A stretch of DNA of 28,376 nt from a virus: positions 1 to 28,376 of IMG/VR virus record IMGVR_UViG_3300021964_000382; one strand, 5' to 3'. This document shows, in pieces, positions 6,576-25,862 of the stretch. The first letter of the stretch is position 1, and every line of letters starts with the position of its first letter. The notes under the pieces are model-generated. The model had not been told where the DNA came from. It was given only the letters and a program-made list of their open reading frames with translations, and did no database searches. The position numbers were made by a program, and so were the translations under genes.

Positions 6576-7263
6576 ATACGCAGTTTTTGCTAAACCAAGA
6601 ACATCATCAGTAGTTCTACAAGAACTGCTTAAATCAGTTTGGGAATCTAAGTATAGAAAACTAGATATAGATGAGATGATGTGGTGTAATGGCAGAGGTG
6701 TGTCATTATACAGAACAGGCATAGGCACATTCTTTGAAGATTGCCCTGAAGATTTCCCACCTTTTAAAATTGAAGCATGTAATGTGCTTTCCGAGCATAT
6801 GCCTTTCCTAGAAACATTTGTTCACAATAACAATTACATACCAATCTTTATAGATAGAGATAAACTCGAGTTGTTAACAAGTTTTTACATATCCAGTCTC
6901 ACATACTTTCATGATTATGGTATTAATAAGCAAAGAAACTTTGCCACTCCTCCTGTTACAGGATCAAGGAAAGAAGAATTCTTTTCTTGGAGTATAGATG
7001 AAAGACTAGAAAGACTAAAAGAAATTGTAAACATAGTTCTTGTTTTCCATGATAGAGATAAATCTATAAGAGCAAAGTTTCCTAATCATGTAGTGTTAAA
7101 TCATGAGGACTTTAAAGATGATGTTCCTTCTGCTTTACAATTACTTGATATAGAATTAGAGGAACCAATATCATATATGCCACTAACTAAAAAATCTAAA
7201 CACTTTGAAATATCAACAGAAGAGAAGATAGCATTGGCAGAATTCGCAGAGTTAATGACATGA
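6547..7263 (+). CDS. Sulfotransferase-like protein
   Basis: A 238-residue protein with features of the PAPS-dependent sulfotransferase fold. The N-terminal strand and loop YAVFAKPRTSS (residues 11-21) is a 5'-phosphosulfate-binding loop of the PRxxS type. IFIDRDKLELLTSFYISS (about 100-117) fits the 3'-phosphate-binding strand and helix with R104 and S116. NHEDF near residue 180 fits the Y/NxxL-type motif of the family. ATG 6547 is chosen because GAGGAAAG stands just upstream; ATG 6535 is in frame. The acceptor is unknown. A clearer sulfotransferase is at 15098. Confidence 0.6.
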   Translation: MPTKNIKLPRYAVFAKPRTSSVVLQELLKSVWESKYRKLDIDEMMWCNGRGVSLYRTGIGTFFEDCPEDFPPFKIEACNVLSEHMPFLETFVHNNNYIPIFIDRDKLELLTSFYISSLTYFHDYGINKQRNFATPPVTGSRKEEFFSWSIDERLERLKEIVNIVLVFHDRDKSIRAKFPNHVVLNHEDFKDDVPSALQLLDIELEEPISYMPLTKKSKHFEISTEEKIALAEFAELMT

Positions 7264-7874
7264 ACCCAAATTGTAAAATAGAATATAGAGATCACATAGG
7301 TATCTATGAGAATGCCTTAACACTAGAACAGTGTGATTCTTTAATCAGTCAATTTCACTTTAGTAAAGATGCTGGTCAAACTAGAATGCGATCAGAATAC
7401 GATCCATCTCCATCAACTAATAAGAAAGATGAATCTATGTCATTGCTAGATTGGAACGATTATACAAGTGAAGAATCCAAAATCACTTGGCAAAATCAAA
7501 AAGAATTTATAGAATACATAGAAGGTGCTATTGTAGGTCATTACATTGATCAACATCCTGTACTCAAAGAAGCAAATTATAGAATCTTTCAAGGAAAAGT
7601 GCAAAGAACAGTTCCTGGAGAAGGATATCATATTTGGCATTGCGAAATAGTAGGAACAAAAGGTGAGGATAGAGATAGATTCTTAGCATGGTCAGTATTT
7701 CTTAACGATGTAGAAGAAGGTGGAGAAACTGAATTCCTACATCAGTCAGTCAGATTTAAACCAAAGGCAGGAACAGCAATCGTATTCCCTGCTTATTTTA
7801 CTCATATGCATAGAGGTAATCCACCATTGAGTGGCGAGAAGTTTATAGCAACAGGTTGGGTTGAATACTTTTAG
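7260..7874 (+). CDS. 2OG-Fe(II) oxygenase, prolyl-4-hydroxylase type, with HxE motif
   Basis: A 204-residue protein of the P4H-like 2OG-Fe(II) family. The double-stranded beta-helix signature is clear: GYHIWHCE (H127-x-E129), FLNDVEEGGETEF (149-159), GTAIVFP (171-177), HMHRGNPP (distal H184) and K194 as the 2OG anchor. The first motif has Glu where most members have Asp, a conservative change. The substrate is unknown; phage members have been proposed to hydroxylate proteins or modify DNA. The start overlaps the sulfotransferase-like stop (ATGA). It ends just before promoter 3. Confidence 0.85.
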   Translation: MNPNCKIEYRDHIGIYENALTLEQCDSLISQFHFSKDAGQTRMRSEYDPSPSTNKKDESMSLLDWNDYTSEESKITWQNQKEFIEYIEGAIVGHYIDQHPVLKEANYRIFQGKVQRTVPGEGYHIWHCEIVGTKGEDRDRFLAWSVFLNDVEEGGETEFLHQSVRFKPKAGTAIVFPAYFTHMHRGNPPLSGEKFIATGWVEYF

Positions 7875-14431: not shown

Positions 14432-15120
14432 TGGCAAAAATATCTAGAGAAGGAATTACATATTGGTCAAGTAGATTATATTCTCACGCAGATCAAAAAG
14501 TAAACTTAAGCACTCCATGCGAACTAGCAGTCAAGATGGGAGCCAAAAGTTCAGAAGCACCTTTTGGTTGGTTTGTTTATGTAAAGTCTAAGAAAGAAGT
14601 TAGATTTTACATTGATGAAAATTGGCAAAATGTTTTATCACCTACAACCAACACATGGTGGGTATGTGAAAGAATGTGGCAATCTAAAATCAAAGGACAA
14701 GCATCTAGTGATGATTATGTTACATATGCTTTCAATAGAGATGAATTATTTGCATTAGTAGACTGGAAGTTGGGTGATGAAATCTTATGGCAACATATAG
14801 TTCCTAAGACTGGTATTCCCTATGCTATAATCACATGGAACTGTAGAGACGAGGATATGCCCAAAATGCTTTACACTTCTCAAGAAAAAGAAATCTATCG
14901 TGTAATCAAAAACACTCTACTGATTCAAGGTGACGAAGATCTTGCTAACACATTACAAAAGAACAAAGCATTTGTAGAAATGAAAAACCAAGTAGATGAA
15001 GAAGGTAATCCAACATCAACTAAGATAACCATGTGGGATGGACAAGGTTCTATACTCCATGAATTTGATAGTGATGCATCAGAGCAACAATTGATCAATG
15101 TTCAACCTGTCGAACTATAA
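14431..15120 (+). CDS. Protein of unknown function
   Basis: A 229-residue soluble protein, rich in Trp (about ten), with a beta-rich first 150 residues (WFVYVKSKKEVRFYIDENW, TWWVCERMW) and a helical, acidic C-terminal part. No catalytic motif is seen. It is coupled to the coiled-coil gene upstream (TAATG overlap) and overlaps the sulfotransferase gene by 23 bases. It could be structural, since it shares a likely late transcript with its neighbour. Confidence 0.7.
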   Translation: MAKISREGITYWSSRLYSHADQKVNLSTPCELAVKMGAKSSEAPFGWFVYVKSKKEVRFYIDENWQNVLSPTTNTWWVCERMWQSKIKGQASSDDYVTYAFNRDELFALVDWKLGDEILWQHIVPKTGIPYAIITWNCRDEDMPKMLYTSQEKEIYRVIKNTLLIQGDEDLANTLQKNKAFVEMKNQVDEEGNPTSTKITMWDGQGSILHEFDSDASEQQLINVQPVEL

Positions 15121-16114
15121 TTACGAAACCAGAGATATTCCTGAGCAATGGTATGCCTTTGTAGATGGATTGAATAAGCATTATGGCAACTTCAATGACT
15201 TTGGTCGACAAGTTCTAGAAAACAATCTTATTCCTCATAGACTGAAGCAATACTTTGGTCTCAAAGCAGAATTTGAAAAGCACGAAGATCTAGACTTTGA
15301 TTTACCCATTATTCAAATCATGTCTATGCCAAGAAGTGGGTCAACCTATTTACATAGGTGTCTAGCAACTTCTGGTATATTTCATGGACCTCAGTTCTTT
15401 GAGTTCCAATCTCCATTACCCATTACAACTGATTTAAACCGACAAAAGAAGATAGATGACTGTAAAAAGATTACAGATCTATTTCAGTTTAAATCATTTG
15501 GTGGTACGCATACAGTAGAGGCAGAAGATTATGAAGAAGATCCGCAAGCACTATTTCCACCCATGTTGGCGGACAGTATTCACTTTGCATTTCGATGTAG
15601 ATCGTTTACTGAATACTGCAATGAAAGATACAAAAAAGACAATGATGCTCTCATATGGCAAAGATCATTTTATAATTTGCTATGGAGACATAAACAAACA
15701 GAGTACTTTCTCTGTAAAACCCCACTCCTAACAGCAAAGTCTGTAAAGTCATACAAAGAAGTATTCCCAAACAGCAAGATCATATGGATTACTCGAGATG
15801 AAGATGCACAATTAAACTCCTTACAAAATGCTTTGTATAACTACAGAGGATCTTATACTAACATCAGCGAAAAAGAATGTCTTTTAGATGCTTATAACAT
15901 CAATAGATTTGCCAGATCGAGATACTTTGATATAGAGGGATCAGATCATATACATGTCACATATGACGAGTTAATACAGAATCCTATGCGAGTAATGGCA
16001 AAAATTTTCGAGTATTGCGATATAGATGCGACTAAATACTATGGCAAGATGGAAACTGGAATTGCTAACTTAGTTGAAATAAGAAAAGCATTTGGTGCGA
16101 TTCCTCAAAAGTAA
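15098..16114 (+). CDS. Sulfotransferase family protein
   Basis: A 338-residue protein with the full sulfotransferase signature: the 5'-phosphosulfate loop MPRSGSTYL (residues 77-85), the CKTPLL segment (206-211) and the 3'-phosphate-binding block WITRDEDAQLNSL with R233, D234 and S241. TYDELIQNP near residue 290 fits the conserved Y-E/D-L motif. It would transfer sulfate from PAPS to an acceptor, in phage context perhaps a glycan or lipid, though the acceptor is unknown. The host must supply PAPS, since no PAPS synthesis gene is seen. ATG 15098 overlaps the preceding gene by 23 bases. The first 65 residues are not part of the core fold. Confidence 0.85.
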   Translation: MFNLSNYNYETRDIPEQWYAFVDGLNKHYGNFNDFGRQVLENNLIPHRLKQYFGLKAEFEKHEDLDFDLPIIQIMSMPRSGSTYLHRCLATSGIFHGPQFFEFQSPLPITTDLNRQKKIDDCKKITDLFQFKSFGGTHTVEAEDYEEDPQALFPPMLADSIHFAFRCRSFTEYCNERYKKDNDALIWQRSFYNLLWRHKQTEYFLCKTPLLTAKSVKSYKEVFPNSKIIWITRDEDAQLNSLQNALYNYRGSYTNISEKECLLDAYNINRFARSRYFDIEGSDHIHVTYDELIQNPMRVMAKIFEYCDIDATKYYGKMETGIANLVEIRKAFGAIPQK

Positions 16115-16551: not shown

Positions 16552-16725
16552 ATGACACCAGAACAGATTGTATATTTGATTTCTATAGTATGCTGTGCTA
16601 TTTTTAGTTACAACAAAGGTTTAAGAATAGGTGCAACAGCAATGGTAACTGAATTGGCAGATAACAAGATTATAAGTAAGAGAGACTTAGAGAAATTTAT
16701 AAATATAAAGATAGAGGAAATCTAA
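16552..16725 (+). CDS. Small single-pass membrane protein
   Basis: A 57-residue protein with one N-terminal hydrophobic helix (about 4-20, EQIVYLISIVCCAIFSY) and a charged helical tail. ATG 16552 follows CTAGGAGTT, a good ribosome binding site. The TAA shares its last base with the next ATG. Function unknown. Confidence 0.7.
   Translation: MTPEQIVYLISIVCCAIFSYNKGLRIGATAMVTELADNKIISKRDLEKFINIKIEEI
16698..16705 (+). promoter_or_regulatory. Possible T4-type late promoter box
   Basis: Exact TATAAATA within the 3' end of the small membrane gene, 19 bases upstream of ATG 16725. A start near 16711 would give a leader of about 14 bases that still holds the GAGGAAA ribosome binding site. Chance occurrence is possible in such AT-rich DNA. 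Confidence 0.4.
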
Positions 16726-17282
16726 TGAGAACAGTAGAAATGATAACAACATTTACATACACACCTAGTGATGTGGATGCATTTTATAACACAATGATCA
16801 ACAATGTGTTTGATCTTAGCACTAAGAAATACAGATCAACAGCAACTTTCAATCAGAAAGATGAATTCAATGCTTATGTTGATGCAGGTGATATTGAAAG
16901 TGTTACCATAGAAAAAACAGAATCTGACACTAAAGTATTGCTTACAATTAAATGGTACAGTTCAGCATCATGGTTAGAATTTATGAAAGGTGAAGACCAA
17001 TGGTTTGCTAAACTTACAGATGGTACATCCACAAGTATTCTACATACATATTTACAACAAAGAGTTGCTAATGCTATGGTCATAGATTACGATCATCAAG
17101 ATACCGAACCAGCATTATCACATTACAACCTATTCAGCGATTGGGTTGGTGCACAAAAACAAAAGTTTTTAGATGATGGTAAATCTGCAGCATTTGCTCA
17201 CACTGCTGCTGTTTTGTATGATGACAAACATGCAAACTTCAGTATCCCATCTGGTGGATGGGCATGGGAAGATTTTGCATAA
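16725..17282 (+). CDS. Unknown protein, first of a tandem paralogue pair
   Basis: A 185-residue protein related to the next gene product: both start with an ITxxTR/TYT strand, a segment VDxFY...NV, then EFN...GIES/DIES, then a K-I-W strand and SAxWLxF, and both end in IPSGGW or VPASGW. It is acidic, with no catalytic motif. The start follows GAGGAAA and a possible late promoter box. In marine T4-like phages such small paralogous proteins are common but uncharacterised; virion decoration is possible but not shown. Confidence 0.72.
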   Translation: MRTVEMITTFTYTPSDVDAFYNTMINNVFDLSTKKYRSTATFNQKDEFNAYVDAGDIESVTIEKTESDTKVLLTIKWYSSASWLEFMKGEDQWFAKLTDGTSTSILHTYLQQRVANAMVIDYDHQDTEPALSHYNLFSDWVGAQKQKFLDDGKSAAFAHTAAVLYDDKHANFSIPSGGWAWEDFA

Positions 17283-17291
17283 GGTATAATT

Positions 17292-17777
17292 ATGATAACA
17301 GTAATCACCAGATATTTTACATCTAATGTAGATAGTTACTATGAGCATTTAACCGAAAATGTAATGGATTGTGCAAACAAACAATATGTTGTTGATGTAC
17401 TACCTATTTTTTCAGGTGCACAAGAGTTTAATGATATCGCAACTGCAGATGGAATAGAATCCTGTAATGTTACAAAAACTGCAGTTAATGTAGATCTTAA
17501 AATAGTATGGAGAGATAGTGCACAGTGGTTACAATTTGCGAAAGATCATTTAGATACTGCTAATGGATTAAACACTCAACACAAATTTATCAGATCTAAT
17601 TATGATGGTGATATTTTTTACAGTTCAGATGATGATGCTGGAACCACACACATAAATGAATACTTCGACTATGTTTGCGAAGTACAAGATGCAAAAGATG
17701 ATTCTGATGATACTAAGTTCTACGCAACTTTGCCATCATCACACGATAGATATACAGTACCAGCATCTGGCTGGTAA
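17292..17777 (+). CDS. Unknown protein, second of a tandem paralogue pair
   Basis: A 161-residue paralogue of the gene just upstream, slightly shorter because the insert between the core and the C-terminal GW motif is reduced. Shared positions include SNVDSYY, EFNDIATADGIES, LKIVWRDSAQWLQFAK and the end VPASGW. It lacks a Shine-Dalgarno site; TATAAT lies directly before ATG 17292, nine bases after the preceding stop. Unknown function. Confidence 0.72.
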   Translation: MITVITRYFTSNVDSYYEHLTENVMDCANKQYVVDVLPIFSGAQEFNDIATADGIESCNVTKTAVNVDLKIVWRDSAQWLQFAKDHLDTANGLNTQHKFIRSNYDGDIFYSSDDDAGTTHINEYFDYVCEVQDAKDDSDDTKFYATLPSSHDRYTVPASGW

Positions 17778-17791
17778 ATCTTAGTTACATT

Positions 17792-18343
17792 ATGATCGAA
17801 GTGATTGACAATTTCATAAAAGATACACGCATACTTTCTGACATAGAATGGGATTCCTCATTCTGGAATAGAAAAGGTTTCTACTATTACTACAAAGGCA
17901 CACCTGCCAACACTCTTAAAAAACGAATTATCAATTACATATGGTCTCGTTGTCCACAAAAGCATGACACAGTAGCATATGAATATTGGACGCACAAAAT
18001 ATATGCCGAAGGAATAGGAGTGCACAAAAAGAAATTACCACCCCATAGAGATACAGATGAGCAAACATATATAAGGGATAAAGTTGAAACACTCTATCCG
18101 AACTATGGTTGTGTGTACTACCCTGTTGAGAATGATGTAGAGGGTGGAAACTTAGTCTTACATTTAGAAGATGGCGAGAAGATAGAAGTAGAACCTAAAA
18201 AGAATAGACTTGTTTGGTTTCCATCAGGTCAAATAGATCATGAAATTCTACCAGTGACTAGAGGTACCAGATATTCATTAGCAATTAACACTTGGAATTA
18301 TGAAAACTATACCATGAGAATGGGATTGGGTAATTACGAATGA
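17792..18343 (+). CDS. 2OG-Fe(II) oxygenase, prolyl-hydroxylase-like
   Basis: A 183-residue 2OG-Fe(II) oxygenase with H85-x-D87 (LPPHRDTDE), the strand block EGGNLVLH (117-124), RLVWFPSG (139-146), distal H150 (QIDHEI) and R160 (GTRYSLAINTW) as the 2OG anchor. These are all the catalytic elements. The HRDTD context is typical of phage P4Hc-like members. Substrate unknown. It overlaps the SDR gene by four bases, so the two may act on the same pathway. Confidence 0.85.
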   Translation: MIEVIDNFIKDTRILSDIEWDSSFWNRKGFYYYYKGTPANTLKKRIINYIWSRCPQKHDTVAYEYWTHKIYAEGIGVHKKKLPPHRDTDEQTYIRDKVETLYPNYGCVYYPVENDVEGGNLVLHLEDGEKIEVEPKKNRLVWFPSGQIDHEILPVTRGTRYSLAINTWNYENYTMRMGLGNYE

Positions 18344-18954
18344 GAGTTTTAATTATAGGTGGTAGAACAGGATTGGGTAAAGCACTCTATGAAGAGTTAT
18401 CCCCCCAACATGAAGTACTCCGAACAACTAGAAGTTGGCAAAAGACGCAAAAACAAAGTATAGATAAATACATTCAGTTGAATCTAAACAATCTAATGCA
18501 AGTCCAAAACTTTGTAGACGATGCACCTGAAGTTGATGTAGTAATAGGAGTTGCTCATCAATGGGATAAAGAACGAGAAGAATCAGATTATATGATGACT
18601 GGCATGAATGGTGCACCAATCATGGAACAAAACTTATGGAAACTAAACGAAAGATTTACAGCAAATGTTACAGCATATATGGCAATCTATCGCGAGTATG
18701 TAAAGAGAGGTACACCCATTGTTCACATCTCTAGTATTGCTGCCAATCTGGATCATAAAGACAATCGTGTCTCTGCTAGTTATCGGATATATAAGTTATC
18801 GCAAGTGGAAATCTGCAGGTCCCTCAACGAAGAAGCAGGTGGAAAAATTCTTGTCCTCGACCCAGGAGTTTGGGGACTTCAAGACGAAATTGCGAAAATT
18901 AAAGCAAAAGAAATAGCAAAATACACTTTAAAGCACTCAACAAAAAACCTATAA
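18340..18954 (+). CDS. Short-chain dehydrogenase/reductase
   Basis: A 204-residue Rossmann-fold protein of the SDR family. The dinucleotide-binding motif is GGRTGLG (residues 7-13), followed by TTRSW near 30. The catalytic Ser is at HISSIA (S131 or S132) and the YxxxK pair is Y148 and K152. The motif DPGVWGL (about 174-180) fits the SDR PG motif. The protein is short, so the C-terminal substrate lid is reduced. It is coupled to the oxygenase upstream, suggesting that oxidation and reduction steps are made together, perhaps on a sugar or lipid. Substrate unknown. Confidence 0.82.
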   Translation: MRVLIIGGRTGLGKALYEELSPQHEVLRTTRSWQKTQKQSIDKYIQLNLNNLMQVQNFVDDAPEVDVVIGVAHQWDKEREESDYMMTGMNGAPIMEQNLWKLNERFTANVTAYMAIYREYVKRGTPIVHISSIAANLDHKDNRVSASYRIYKLSQVEICRSLNEEAGGKILVLDPGVWGLQDEIAKIKAKEIAKYTLKHSTKNL

Positions 18955-18961
18955 TATAACT

Positions 18962-19129
18962 ATGAAAGATTGGGGTAGTTTGAACGATACATTAGAAGAA
19001 CAGTTAAGAAGGCAGATTATCGCACTCAAGAAAGAGAACAAAACATTAACATCAGAAAATGCTGTTCTCAAAACCAATGTAAACCAATTACAAAAACTAT
19101 ACTATGAAACTCTCAAGGAGAAAAAATGA
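18962..19129 (+). CDS. Small leucine-zipper-like coiled-coil protein
   Basis: A 55-residue helical protein with heptad leucines and isoleucines (L11, L15, I19, L22, L29, L36, L43), strongly charged at the other positions, so it probably forms a parallel coiled coil. It lies between the SDR gene and the gene at 19126, overlapping the latter by four bases (ATGA), which supports it as real. Function unknown. Confidence 0.65.
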   Translation: MKDWGSLNDTLEEQLRRQIIALKKENKTLTSENAVLKTNVNQLQKLYYETLKEKK

Positions 19130-19368
19130 ATATACATTACTTTGGTATGTCTGAAGCAGAAAAGTACATGGCAGACTTAGGAAGAAAACTAGTCAAGTCT
19201 GCTGAAGAAATGACAATAGAATACAACGATGAAGAATGGAATGCTGCTGTGACTGCTGGTGATAAACTTACTAGATTTGGTACAACCTATGGACCAAAGA
19301 GTTTAACTAAAGACTTCTCGAAAGAAGAGAGAAAAGTCATATTACAGTATCTAGATTACAATGGTTAA
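19126..19368 (+). CDS. Small protein of unknown function
   Basis: An 80-residue soluble, mixed-charge protein, not recognised. It starts behind AAGGAG (19115-19120) with five bases of spacing and overlaps its upstream neighbour by four bases and the Rieske-like gene downstream by eight. It has no cysteines and so does not supply a missing Rieske iron-sulfur domain. Confidence 0.65.
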   Translation: MNIHYFGMSEAEKYMADLGRKLVKSAEEMTIEYNDEEWNAAVTAGDKLTRFGTTYGPKSLTKDFSKEERKVILQYLDYNG

Positions 19369-19906
19369 CCTATCCCCTCAAGCACAAAAAACATTTGACA
19401 GAATGACTGAGTATCGTACACACTATCTTACGATGCCAGCATCTGCTCACACGATGACCATGAATGCTTTTGATGTACCCCATCTAATACATCTACATAA
19501 ATTTACAGATGTAAAAGTTATACACAGCGACTTTAGTACCTATGCTTTTTTATGTGTAGATGCTACTATGCCCAGAAGCACTCATAAATTTAGAATGAAA
19601 GTAAGATCGTTTGTACCCAATGAGTTGATAGTTGATGTATTTACCACTTCAGGTGACCATATGTATACGACAATAGAAATCAACGAAGATTTAGAAGAAA
19701 ATAAGTGTAAACACACCGAAATCTTCCTATATAACAAAGAATCTACACGATTTACACGACCTTTTATGGAGTCAGTGTTTAAGTCTAAGCAACCTATAAC
19801 ACATGAAGATGAAGTCATATTGGATCAAGTGACTACACATCTTCCCGAAGAAGGCATTGATCCCATTATGGATGAGTATATAAAATGGTACCAGAGAACG
19901 ATTTAG
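19361..19906 (+). CDS. Stand-alone Rieske-oxygenase-like catalytic domain, first of pair
   Basis: A 181-residue protein with the mononuclear-iron signature of Rieske oxygenases: N35-x2-D38-x2-H41-x4-H46 in MNAFDVPHLIHLHKF. About 105 residues later HEDEVILDQV supplies the carboxylate region (E149 or D150), and the end DEYIKWYQR resembles the family's terminal RxWYxQF-type strand. The middle is beta-rich, as in the Bet v1/START-like catalytic domain. No Rieske [2Fe-2S] motif (CxH...CxxH) is present, and the length is about half that of a full enzyme. It could work with a Rieske partner encoded elsewhere, or have a non-redox role. It overlaps its paralogue by 22 bases. Confidence 0.6.
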   Translation: MVNLSPQAQKTFDRMTEYRTHYLTMPASAHTMTMNAFDVPHLIHLHKFTDVKVIHSDFSTYAFLCVDATMPRSTHKFRMKVRSFVPNELIVDVFTTSGDHMYTTIEINEDLEENKCKHTEIFLYNKESTRFTRPFMESVFKSKQPITHEDEVILDQVTTHLPEEGIDPIMDEYIKWYQRTI

Positions 19907-20445
19907 TATTTTACGATGTTGTAGAGATGGATATCCCTACAAACTATATTAACATTACACGGAATGCTTTTGACATTCCTCATTTCACTTCAGTTCATGG
20001 ATGGCAAACTGTAGAACTTGTAGACTTTGGTTATGAAGCAGGGCATGAGTTATATCCTCATACTGCTTACATAGAATTGTACTTAGGTGATAATCGTAAT
20101 GACAAAGAAGGAGATGTGAATACTCTACCTCCAGGAAAGAAATCACTTATCAAGACTAGAAACTTTGACCCTTTCAATAATCGTATCGATGTATCAGTTG
20201 ATGGTGTGCATTTGGTTACTGCTTTTAATAAACTTACAGAAGTTGATGAGTATGAAACTAGTTTATCGTCAGAGTTTTGGGTGCCAGAAGGATTACCATT
20301 ATCTATTGGTAAACTATACGCAGAAGATGCTGTTAAGCAAACAGCACAAGACATACCCATATGGAAAACTATAGATCATAAACAGTTTATACCAACTACT
20401 GAATTAGATGAGTTTTATTTAGAATGGATCGGGAGGTTTGAATGA
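19885..20445 (+). CDS. Stand-alone Rieske-oxygenase-like catalytic domain, second of pair
   Basis: A 186-residue paralogue of the preceding gene. It has N27-x2-D30-x2-H33-x4-H38 in RNAFDIPHFTSVHGW, the exact spacing of the iron site in Rieske oxygenases. QDIPIWKT (D156) lies in the place of the third iron ligand, and the end ELDEFYLEWIGRF resembles the family terminus. There is no Rieske cluster motif. The substrate is unknown; related catalytic domains act on sterols, chlorophylls and aromatic or N-methyl compounds. The pair may form a heteromer, as with alpha and beta subunits. Confidence 0.62.
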   Translation: MVPENDLVFYDVVEMDIPTNYINITRNAFDIPHFTSVHGWQTVELVDFGYEAGHELYPHTAYIELYLGDNRNDKEGDVNTLPPGKKSLIKTRNFDPFNNRIDVSVDGVHLVTAFNKLTEVDEYETSLSSEFWVPEGLPLSIGKLYAEDAVKQTAQDIPIWKTIDHKQFIPTTELDEFYLEWIGRFE

Positions 20446-20984
20446 ACATCTTTTACTTAGATAAAGCACCAAAGGTTGCTGCGGAATTACATTGTGACAA
20501 GCATGTAGTTAAAATGATCATAGAGTATGCTCAACTTATGAGTACTGCTCATCGTATATTGGATGGTACAGAGTACATGGACAAAACTGCGAATGGTAGA
20601 AACATACGCAGATGGTTACATGAGAACTCTAACTATGAGAATACACTTTACAAAGCATCTCATATTAACCATCCGAGTGCCAAATGGACTAGAGAATCTG
20701 CTTACAACTACAACTATGTGTACAAGTTGTTCTGTGCACTCTGTGACGAATACACCTACAGATATGGTAAAGTACATATGACTGATGAAAAACTCAGAGA
20801 ACTACTTGCTATGCCACCGAAGAACATACCCATTAATCGTAAGTTCTTTCAACCACCACAAGCAATGCCAGATGATGTGAAAGAAGAATGTTCTATCATT
20901 GCTTATCAGAATTATTATCGAAATTACAAAAAAAGTTTCGCAAAATGGACTAATAGACCTATCCCAGCATTTATGTCAACCTAA
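20442..20984 (+). CDS. Conserved phage protein, His- and Tyr-rich, unknown function
   Basis: A 180-residue protein with a strongly conserved-looking start (MNIFYLDKAPKVAAELHCDKHVVKM) and blocks STAHRILDG, HINHPSAKWTRES and YRYGKVH. This pattern is familiar from hypothetical proteins of many phages; the conserved His, Asp and Arg suggest an enzyme or metal site, but I cannot name the family with confidence. It overlaps the Rieske-like gene by four bases. Confidence 0.7.
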   Translation: MNIFYLDKAPKVAAELHCDKHVVKMIIEYAQLMSTAHRILDGTEYMDKTANGRNIRRWLHENSNYENTLYKASHINHPSAKWTRESAYNYNYVYKLFCALCDEYTYRYGKVHMTDEKLRELLAMPPKNIPINRKFFQPPQAMPDDVKEECSIIAYQNYYRNYKKSFAKWTNRPIPAFMST

Positions 20985-22157: not shown

Positions 22158-22294
22158 GCACAAAATATCAGGATGAGTGGGAAAGAATCTTTGGTTCTAA
22201 AGAACAAGAGAAACAAGATATCTTAGACGAACTAAATCCAGATAAGTTGCCAGATATAGAGAACATAAATGTATCCAAGTTTCGTAAAGTTTAA
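22121..22294 (+). CDS. Small conserved phage protein (WxRIFG motif)
   Basis: A 57-residue protein starting MAGKGSRRRPEVG, followed by YQDEWERIFGSKE, a pattern shared by many tiny phage proteins (GxGSxxRP...WdrIFG). Function is unknown. ATG 22121 is chosen because GGGAAG lies upstream; ATG 22106 is in frame. It overlaps both neighbours, by 37 and 26 bases. Confidence 0.65.
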   Translation: MAGKGSRRRPEVGTKYQDEWERIFGSKEQEKQDILDELNPDKLPDIENINVSKFRKV

Positions 22295-22883
22295 AAACAT
22301 AGAGATTCCCGAAGACGCAAGGATATTGTGGAAAGATATCTTTAGATACAAGTCTTCACCTGATGATCCATTCTGGGTCAAAAGTAAAAACAAATTCGCA
22401 ACAGAAGGAACTACAGTCAAAGAAATTCCACAAGATCTAAGTGGAAGCGAGCATATGGAAAGAATTTATAAGTTGTTGCCAAGAGTGCTACTTAAACATA
22501 TGTTTCCTGAAGTTGATTTAAGTATCTTTGAAGAACTCATGCCCCAAGCAGGTTATATGTATGCTGGTTCTAGTGTCACCGAGCACACAGATAATTGGAT
22601 GATGCCAAAAGATCCACTCATATTAGCATTCACAGATATGAGTTTAACAGTAAACAAAAAGAGATATGAAGTAGCAAAGGGAGACATCGTATCTATACCG
22701 ACCAACATTCCACACTCAATGGATCCTGCTCCTCATGATCAAATATGGGTAGCAGTTAGATGTGGTATAGATATAGCAAGATGTAGCATCGAACATCTTG
22801 CGGATATGTTTGAGTATGAATACATAGACTATCTGGATCTTAAAGAAATAAAGGGTGGATTAAAAAGACGTGGGATATCCTAA
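22269..22883 (+). CDS. 2OG-Fe(II) oxygenase-like protein, first of tandem pair
   Basis: A 204-residue protein with H106-x-D108 (VTEHTDNW), distal H149 (NIPHSM) and R164 (WVAVRCG), matching the iron and 2OG ligands of the 2OG-Fe(II) fold. Between them lie the strand blocks DPLILAFTDMSLTV and YEVAKGDIVSIPT. It is a paralogue of the next gene product (shared starts YPSFVKFKNI and YPKFVKWRNI). The gene at 4446 appears to be a more distant relative. It lies in a chain of overlapping genes. Substrate unknown. Confidence 0.65.
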   Translation: MYPSFVKFKNIEIPEDARILWKDIFRYKSSPDDPFWVKSKNKFATEGTTVKEIPQDLSGSEHMERIYKLLPRVLLKHMFPEVDLSIFEELMPQAGYMYAGSSVTEHTDNWMMPKDPLILAFTDMSLTVNKKRYEVAKGDIVSIPTNIPHSMDPAPHDQIWVAVRCGIDIARCSIEHLADMFEYEYIDYLDLKEIKGGLKRRGIS

Positions 22884-23454
22884 GTTTGTAAAATGGCGAA
22901 ACATAGGTGAGGTCCCAGAAGAATCTTATCTATATTGGGATGGTGTTCTTAATTATGACAACGAAGATGGAGCAACTTCTCACACACGCATCAATCAAAT
23001 CGTCACCACTGGATTATATAGACCCAGAGAAAAACTTATGGGTGAAGAGTGGTTTCGTAAGATCTATATAGATTACACTCAAAACTTTTTAAAATACACT
23101 GGTACATGGTTTCCTTATGGGGAAGAAACAATTGTTGTTCCTCAAGCAGGATTCTGTGGTACTGATCACTCTGTGCCCTTGCATAGAGATACAGTTTTTG
23201 AACCTGTAGATCCTATATTGCTTGCTCTCACCGATATGAAATTATTTGTACACGATACCACCTATGATATATACAAGGGTGATGTTTTTAGTCTTGCCAC
23301 TAATCTACAACATAATGTTCCTAAACAAGATTATGATCAACAATGGGTGGGTGTTAGATTCAACACGCAGAAAGGCAAATACAATATCACGCATCTCTTA
23401 GAAGAATTAGAACACGAAGAATTATCTGAAATCACCTATACAGCACGAACTTAA
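22870..23454 (+). CDS. 2OG-Fe(II) oxygenase-like protein, second of tandem pair, GTG start
   Basis: A 194-residue paralogue of the upstream gene product. Ligands are H105-x-D107 (VPLHRDTV), H148 (NLQHNVP) and R163 (WVGVRFN); strands DPILLALTDMKLFV and YDIYKGDVFSLAT align with the first copy. GTG 22870 is chosen because the first residues then align with the ATG start of the paralogue; it overlaps the upstream stop by 14 bases. The N-terminal third differs, so substrates may differ. Confidence 0.67.
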   Translation: MGYPKFVKWRNIGEVPEESYLYWDGVLNYDNEDGATSHTRINQIVTTGLYRPREKLMGEEWFRKIYIDYTQNFLKYTGTWFPYGEETIVVPQAGFCGTDHSVPLHRDTVFEPVDPILLALTDMKLFVHDTTYDIYKGDVFSLATNLQHNVPKQDYDQQWVGVRFNTQKGKYNITHLLEELEHEELSEITYTART

Positions 23455-24759: not shown

Positions 24760-24981
24760 ATGATACTATCAAAAAAGCAATTCTCTGAACAAGTTGAATC
24801 AAAGATTAGTAAAGGTGCAGAAGTCATCGATGCTATCTTAGGAGTATGCGAATCTTATTCTCTAGAACCTGAATCTGCTAAAAGATTATTGAGTGATGGA
24901 CTCAAACAAAAACTTACAGCAGAAGCATCCAATCTTAATTTGATTAAGGGGAGCAAGTCTAGAGGAAAACTTCCCATATGA
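24760..24981 (+). CDS. 33: gp33-like late transcription co-activator
   Basis: A 73-residue protein resembling gp33 of marine T4-like phages: a start LSKKQFSEQVESKI, then VIDAILGVCESYSLEPESAKRLLSD, then LKQKLTAEASNLNLIKG. T4 gp33 bridges host RNA polymerase and the gp45 sliding clamp to activate late promoters, and its C-terminus binds the clamp. The present C-terminus (KLPI) could do so. It is shorter than T4 gp33 (112 residues), as usual in marine relatives. The place just before gene 59 and gene 32 supports the call. It overlaps the next gene by four bases (ATGA). Confidence 0.75.
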   Translation: MILSKKQFSEQVESKISKGAEVIDAILGVCESYSLEPESAKRLLSDGLKQKLTAEASNLNLIKGSKSRGKLPI

Positions 24982-25862
24982 GAATACTCGAAAGATCTTC
25001 CAGATATTCAATACGAGAGGACTTAAAAACTAAGTTCGCAGTCCTCGTACATCTAGGAGATATGACAGAGCAGGAGTTTTATGACTTCTCCTTATCCATA
25101 GGTGATATTGATTTAGAATGTTATGATGATACACATCATCAAAAAGAGGTAAGTCGTATTGCCAACTCTACTCGAATGTCTGAGTTTAAACAGCAAGATT
25201 CTGAATCACGCAATGTACTAGCAAAGTCCAGTCTGCCAGGAATGGCAATCTTTGACTATGCTGGATTAGATCAAGAAGAAGATGTAGAAATAGGTCTATC
25301 TGGTTTTGGCGATATGAGTGATGAGTATAAAGCAAAAAGAGCATTGATCGGTGGTTTCAAAAACTGGCATGTAGACTTTCCACATAGGAAGGAACTTGCC
25401 GACATAGGAATTTTATATGCAAAGAATTATAAACCAACTCAGACAGATAGAGATGCCGATATCCACGGATACAATATTATTAATCCGAGACTTGGTGGTG
25501 GTTCCACTTTGCTTGTTGACTTTTGCTTGGCATATGATAAACATCATGATGCCTTTGCTGGGAAACATGTAGAGTTTTACTACTCCGAAGAGGTTGCTCA
25601 TCCATTACTGAGATACAATAAGATACTTGACAGAGAGACAATGTATATCTCTCCTGTATCAGTATTGCCTACGAAAAGCAATAGTATCTTAGCAAATGAA
25701 ATCTTTATGTTGTTGGTTAATGATGACGAACTACTATGGCAAGTGAATTGGGAAGAAGGTGATTGTTTGATATTTAACAACACTGCCTGTATGCACAGAG
25801 GTGCGTATCATAAGTTTGCTGGTGAAAGAACACTTTGGAGAACCACTGTAAAGTATGACTAG
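24978..25862 (+). CDS. TauD/TfdA-family 2OG-Fe(II) dioxygenase
   Basis: A 294-residue protein of the TauD family. The iron motif H131-x-D133 (NWHVDFPH) is followed by the usual strand LADIGILYAKNY, the segment GGGSTLLVDFCLAYD (173-187), and near the end CLIFNNTACMHRG with distal H273 and the Arg pair R284 and R288 (ERTLWRTTV). In TauD-type enzymes 2-oxoglutarate-driven hydroxylation releases sulfite or modifies small molecules; here the substrate is unknown. It is inserted between genes 33 and 59, overlapping both by four and eight bases, so it is expressed with the replication genes. Confidence 0.87.
   Translation: MRILERSSRYSIREDLKTKFAVLVHLGDMTEQEFYDFSLSIGDIDLECYDDTHHQKEVSRIANSTRMSEFKQQDSESRNVLAKSSLPGMAIFDYAGLDQEEDVEIGLSGFGDMSDEYKAKRALIGGFKNWHVDFPHRKELADIGILYAKNYKPTQTDRDADIHGYNIINPRLGGGSTLLVDFCLAYDKHHDAFAGKHVEFYYSEEVAHPLLRYNKILDRETMYISPVSVLPTKSNSILANEIFMLLVNDDELLWQVNWEEGDCLIFNNTACMHRGAYHKFAGERTLWRTTVKYD

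Follow-up and report, generated by a model that had tools for sequence, protein, structure and literature searches.

Electron transfer in Rieske oxygenases runs from the Rieske cluster on one chain to the iron on the adjacent chain, via a conserved Asp residue (PMC12445004; PMC4064121). In KshA of Mycobacterium tuberculosis, this bridge is Asp178, the iron ligands are His181, His186, and Asp304, and Trp308 is among the putative substrate-contacting residues (PMC4064121). NdmC, the N7-demethylase subunit of NdmCDE from Pseudomonas putida CBB5, has no Rieske cluster and uses an extra cluster on its reductase, NdmD (PMC4408171), and MpCAO of Micromonas pusilla is an oxygenase in two polypeptide chains (PMC9615114). 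NdmC and MpCAO are thus precedents for catalytic domains that are detached. In this study, we describe two tandem genes, P0001 and P0002, in a 28.4-kb virus record in IMG/VR (28,376 nucleotides [nt]; the whole stretch is referred to here as the window), each of which encodes a predicted Rieske-oxygenase catalytic domain that lacks a Rieske domain.

The phage pair shares with KshA (PF19298) a predicted helix-grip fold, the motif N-x2-D-x2-H-x4-H, a C-terminal Trp, and, in P0002, an Asp 123 residues past the first His and a QDxxIW motif. Unlike KshA, however, the pair has no N-terminal Rieske domain, consists of chains of 181 to 186 amino acids (aa) as opposed to about 330 to 420 aa, is only 19 to 20% identical to it, and is present as two tandem copies. 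The pair resembles NdmC in being made of catalytic chains that lack a Rieske domain; however, NdmC works with NdmD and NdmE, whereas nothing similar is found near the phage pair, and there are two phage paralogues rather than one. In the two-chain Micromonas CAO, the Rieske site is reportedly on one chain and the iron site on the other, whereas both phage chains carry the iron site and neither carries a Rieske site.

Results

Both proteins carry a predicted KshA-like iron site. The two open reading frames (ORFs), which overlap by 22 nt, lie exactly where an earlier reading made without database searches (the sequence-only reading) had placed them (Table 1). The motif residues that it had listed, N35/D38/H41/H46 in P0001 and N27/D30/H33/H38 in P0002, are present, as are the downstream carboxylates, D150 (109 residues past H41) and D156 (123 residues past H33). 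The motif occurs twice in the 62 plus-strand stop-to-stop frames of at least 60 aa (10,003 residues), compared with 0.027 occurrences expected from residue shuffles of the window frames, and when the window and five relative contigs were scanned in all six frames, the slightly looser pattern N..D..H.{3,5}H fell only within the P0001 and P0002 ORFs. P0001 and P0002 are homologous and about 24% identical; in 8/8 sequences of the two paralogues, the iron triad, including the D150/D156 carboxylate, the bridging Asp (D38/D30), and the Asn are all invariant. The spacing of D30, H33, H38, D156, and W160 in P0002 is identical to that of Asp178, His181, His186, Asp304, and Trp308 in M. tuberculosis KshA (3, 5, and 123 residues), and the P0001 site (D38/H41/H46/D150) is in register with the same columns, with the middle shortened. 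The DxxH...H residues, which had been proposed to form one site, are therefore in register with the ligands and bridging Asp of KshA and appear to constitute a 2-His-1-carboxylate mononuclear iron site, as judged by sequence register only. The C-terminal element ascribed to both proteins is real in each, but the two versions are not identical: P0001 has DEYIKW, whereas P0002 has DEFYLEW, which is one residue longer.

Similarity to KshA extends over the whole length of the proteins. P0002 matched PF19298 (KshA_C) with an E value of 0.0018 (18.9 bits), and its relative in contig L010 did so with an E value of 1.2e-4 (22.7 bits); P0001 alone had no meaningful Pfam match and none to PF19298. For profile-profile alignment by hhalign, 30 KshA-type enzymes were collected from alphaproteobacteria. 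The profile of the pair aligned from first to last residue with the KshA-type catalytic domain (template positions 184 to 379, after the Rieske domain) with an E value of about 1e-11; the P0002 family alone gave 4e-11, and the P0001 family gave 7e-4, in register. As controls, the best of 50 column shuffles gave E values of 0.02 to 0.04 or, with other combinations of family and mode, 0.13 to 0.2; window families unrelated to the pair gave 0.36 or worse. PDB sequence searches, whether queried with P0002 itself or with the profile of either family, returned nothing meaningful. The likeness to KshA, CAO, and PAO that had been suggested thus holds for the KshA type, given the PF19298 matches, but not for CAO or PAO in particular.

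AlphaFold2 models were built on an 8-sequence alignment and had pLDDT and pTM values of 86 and 0.84 for P0001 and 65 and 0.64 for P0002. Both models have the helix-grip order of one strand, two helices, six strands, and a C-terminal helix. In Foldseek searches of the PDB, Rieske oxygenases ranked first for both P0001 (CntA, KshA5, SxtT, and NdmA; TMq up to 0.68) and P0002 (SxtT, GxtA, and KshA5), so that the predicted fold agrees with the one that the sequence-only reading had anticipated. Bet v1/START-like binders ranked after them, as is to be expected within a single fold class, and cyclases were matched as well.

No Rieske domain was found in the sequenced parts of these phages. An N-terminal Rieske [2Fe-2S] domain is not present in either chain, as both ORFs begin where the catalytic domain begins. 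PF00355 had no match in the window or in the five relative contigs even at an E value of 10, and in six-frame scans of the same sequences C.H...C..H matched only in short antisense frames, in agreement with the earlier observation that neither protein nor any other window gene supplies CxH...CxxH. Four complete Kyanoviridae genomes, including that of Pelagibacter phage HTVC008M, also had no PF00355 match; these genomes lack the pair as well. Furthermore, no dedicated reductase or ferredoxin was recognized among the window proteins scanned, the window being a genome fragment, and no NdmD-like Rieske-bearing reductase or glutathione S-transferase (GST)-like NdmE was found among the scanned neighboring window genes. 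All of the records that carry the pair are fragments (the 28-kb window; the longest is 42.9 kb), and the whole phage genome is probably near 150 kb; therefore, the absence of a Rieske cluster is claimed for the sequenced parts and not for the whole virus. In bacteria, the 41 PF19298 matches obtained from 289 alphaproteobacteria all fall within open frames of 324 to 607 aa, and CxH...CxxH is carried by 30/30 of the KshA-type enzymes fetched. By this yardstick, a catalytic domain on its own is an exception in the KshA_C family, as its description as unusual had implied.

The pair is maintained as two intact genes. The ratio of nonsynonymous to synonymous substitution rates (dN/dS), determined for the window against its nearest nonidentical relative, was 0.15 for P0001 and 0.135 for P0002; both genes are therefore under purifying selection and encode maintained proteins. 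The possibility that they are a broken full-length gene was rejected, since in every record the ORFs are intact and begin at the catalytic domain, and they are under purifying selection.

The pair was found in a small group of phage contigs. The best nucleotide relatives of the window are Kyanoviridae, the first and nearest named phage being HTVC008M; the source is a Kyanoviridae-like marine phage with SAR11 as its putative host. An HTVC008M protein named "ferredoxin" in RefSeq (YP_007518017.1; L027, 2820 to 3467) was discounted as evidence of a donor because it had no Pfam match at an E value of ≤0.1, and its name looks doubtful. The pair is present in five other IMG/VR contigs, of which two are essentially identical, one has 96% (P0002) and 93% (P0001) identity, and two have 64 to 66% and 61% identity, respectively; the two distant contigs share the gene order SDR, 80-aa gene, P0001, P0002, and phrog_624 gene (Table 1). 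Because the paralogues are only about 24% identical, their duplication, or joint capture, appears to be older than the split of these phage lineages. IMG/VR scans with the 80-aa gene and the SDR gene returned only contigs already known, and tblastn searches of INPHARED with P0001 and P0002 returned nothing. No cellular relative was found in a profile search of genome contigs with the pair profile, and partial matches in 247 SAR11 genomes (about 28 residues at an E value of 0.045 or worse) were rejected as chance.

The run from 19126 to 20984 looks translationally coupled, because successive genes overlap. The short-chain dehydrogenase/reductase (SDR) encoded upstream retains S and Y-x3-K and is a possible pathway partner of the pair, one that would fit a subsequent oxidation step; this link is positional only. 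Pairing of an SDR with a Rieske oxygenase has been documented (PMC10579966). The 80-aa upstream gene was rejected as a Rieske remnant, since it has no Cys.

Table 1. Positions of the phage gene pair, its predicted iron-site residues, and its neighbors in the window, and of the split pairs in bacterial loci
Feature	Position	Strand	Remarks
P0001, Rieske-less Rieske-oxygenase catalytic domain A (predicted), 181 aa	19361..19906	+	Bridging D38; predicted ligands H41, H46, and D150; N35
P0002, Rieske-less Rieske-oxygenase catalytic domain B (predicted), 186 aa	19885..20445	+	Bridging D30; predicted ligands H33, H38, and D156; N27, W160
Iron-site motif of P0001, N35-x2-D38-x2-H41-x4-H46	19463..19498	+	Invariant in 4/4 orthologues; aligned with P0002
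D150, predicted third iron ligand of P0001	19808..19810	+	Aligned with D156 of P0002 and the KshA-type qD.xIW column
Iron-site motif of P0002, N27-x2-D30-x2-H33-x4-H38	19963..19998	+	From ORF sequence and family alignments
D156, predicted third iron ligand of P0002	20350..20352	+	In QDIPIW motif, also found in a bacterial KshA homologue
SDR (S131/S132, Y148-x3-K152)	18340..18954	+	Upstream of pair; conserved, 83% identical in relatives
80-aa gene without Cys, no family	19126..19368	+	Overlaps P0001 start; conserved together with pair
phrog_624 "DNA binding protein"/weak pyrimidine-dimer glycosylase	20442..20984	+	Overlaps P0002 end; conserved
Split pair, L201	654-1307 and 1313-1768	-	
Split pair, L204	1420-2396	+	
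Split pair, L205	1664-2594	+	
Split pair, L206	1486-2738	-	

The window also encodes a glutaredoxin and several 2-oxoglutarate (2OG)-Fe(II) oxygenases, three of the 2OG-Fe(II)/TauD type being located at 7260 to 7874, 17792 to 18343, and 24978 to 25862; the second of these had no match in genomes G004 and G005, whereas its neighbors matched. Just upstream of this gene and the SDR gene are tandem paralogues that encode small proteins without known function (16725 to 17282 and 17292 to 17777), a family with two copies in the window and three in a relative (L010, 2875 to 4436). A cupin-like tandem paralogue pair (22269 to 22883 and 22870 to 23454), which has a weak Cupin_2 match and H-x-D, is conserved in the same relative (L010, 8750 to 10086), so that several paired iron-enzyme-like genes are present in one phage. 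A sulfotransferase gene (15098 to 16114; Sulfotransfer_3, E value of 4e-22) is 84% identical in relatives and had no match in INPHARED phages.

A split gene pair was observed in bacteria. It occurs in SAR11 (three genomes) and in one further alphaproteobacterium and consists of a stand-alone Rieske gene of about 105 aa, directly followed downstream by a gene encoding a protein of 205 to 221 aa, in which WNYxDHEH...H (N-x2-D-x2-H-x4-H) and a C-terminal ED carboxylate are conserved. The larger protein had no Pfam match and no PDB sequence match, and homology could be demonstrated neither to KshA nor to the phage pair (for the latter, the best local E value was 0.04). Like the phage proteins, it is small, stands alone, and combines this motif with a C-terminal ED carboxylate; however, its gene adjoins a Rieske gene in 4/4 cases. 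This pair looks like a split oxygenase, and its occurrence suggests that, in the clade of the putative host, each oxygenase half can exist separately.

Discussion

We consider it somewhat probable that P0001 and P0002 are KshA-type stand-alone catalytic domains that oxygenate a small molecule with electrons supplied in trans by a separate Rieske protein, most likely that of the host. The two proteins would be made from one overlapping gene run and would probably assemble together, and each chain would bind Fe(II) through two His residues and one Asp. Electrons from a separately encoded Rieske protein, either the host's or one from the unsequenced part of the phage, would then reach the iron in trans, and the pair would oxygenate its small-molecule substrate. 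Supply from a Rieske protein is postulated because neither phage paralogue shows any variation at the bridging Asp, and NdmC with NdmD and the two-chain MpCAO are precedents for a Rieske donor that acts in trans. We more tentatively suggest that this two-chain Rieske-less oxygenase plugs into the host Rieske chain and that the phage supplies only the substrate-specific catalytic halves. The putative host is rich in candidate donors: a Rieske protein was found in 115 of 117 SAR11 genomes, many in oxygenase-length frames, and there were a few stand-alone Rieske genes.

Several observations weigh against this interpretation. The Rieske donor is hypothetical; the sampled SAR11 oxygenases are GbcA-like and not KshA-like, so that the fit of a host Rieske protein is only putative, and some SAR11 Rieske matches are short frames of about 170 to 200 aa with a bc1-type look. 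Relatedness to HTVC008M is the sole basis for the host assignment, and the profile search of the 247 SAR11 genomes gave no convincing relative of the pair. In addition, neither P0002 nor its L010 relative reached the PF19298 gathering cutoff of 23.3 bits, the confidence of the P0002 model is modest, and both alignments consist of 8 sequences only. Although the likeness in fold and site is strong, we do not place the pair among the canonical Rieske oxygenases, because the Rieske domain is missing.

One alternative is that genes for a Rieske partner, and perhaps for a reductase as well, lie elsewhere in the phage genome, outside the sequenced fragment, so that the pair is part of a split Rieske oxygenase. 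The fragmentary nature of all of the records and the existence of bacterial pairs in which a Rieske gene adjoins the catalytic-like gene favor such an arrangement; however, the sequenced flanks of the pair, which in the 42.9-kb record reach up to about 38 kb upstream, contain no Rieske gene, PF00355 is absent from the four complete Kyanoviridae genomes, and the SAR11-type Rieske was not found in IMG/VR. On balance, it appears unlikely. We regard as more doubtful the proposal that the two proteins are Rieske-independent iron oxygenases that are reduced by substrate, a thiol or ascorbate-type reductant, flavin, or peroxide. It would account for the lack of a nearby Rieske gene, and the window does encode a glutaredoxin and 2OG-Fe(II) oxygenases, which need no Rieske protein, but the bridging Asp, which is thought to serve Rieske-to-iron transfer, is invariant, although this residue also affects catalysis.

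Lower again in our estimation is the possibility that the enzyme function has been lost and that the helix-grip fold now binds a ligand or serves as a structural or host takeover protein. The Foldseek matches to Bet v1/START-like binders and cyclases and the lack of an apparent substrate are in keeping with such a role; however, loss of function usually breaks metal sites of this kind, and here the triad, bridging Asp, and Asn are unchanged in all eight sequences of paralogues this divergent. Finally, it is highly improbable that unrelated phage proteins converged on a short motif by chance: the sequences share only about 20% identity or less with known Rieske oxygenases and have no PDB sequence match, but a motif with so low an expected count was seen twice in adjacent genes, and the end-to-end profile alignment, far above shuffles, together with the independent fold matches refutes it, unless the models are wrong.

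Searches for other phage-borne enzymes of this type gave little. When two bacterial Rieske oxygenases were scanned, PHROGs contained no Rieske oxygenase family, and the only INPHARED matches were records of "Acinetobacter phage MD-2021a," which were rejected as a phage source because their gene content (kshA and antA) suggests bacterial DNA; records CAKLQH02 and CAKLQF02, with kshA/antA-type genes, look like bacterial contigs filed as phage. Scanning of IMG/VR yielded matches neither to a bacterial KshA homologue nor to the SAR11 split pair, and in paper searches that combined Rieske with pelagiphage or cyanophage, no title or abstract described such a phage gene. Detached catalytic domains are already known; as far as these collections reach, what is new here is that the domains are phage borne, in tandem, far diverged, and without a local electron donor.

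If the pair does plug into a host Rieske chain, it would be the first phage Rieske-oxygenase-type enzyme. Such genes escape annotation, because neither P0001 nor P0002 passes a Pfam, NCBIfam, or PHROG cutoff, and this should serve as a warning. Modularity between the two metal sites that define Rieske oxygenases is rarely seen in nature, and two catalytic halves conserved side by side with no donor half, in a phage lineage for which no Rieske oxygenase family is on record, provide a testable case both for electron supply in trans and for a phage that may add a new oxygenation step to the infected cell.
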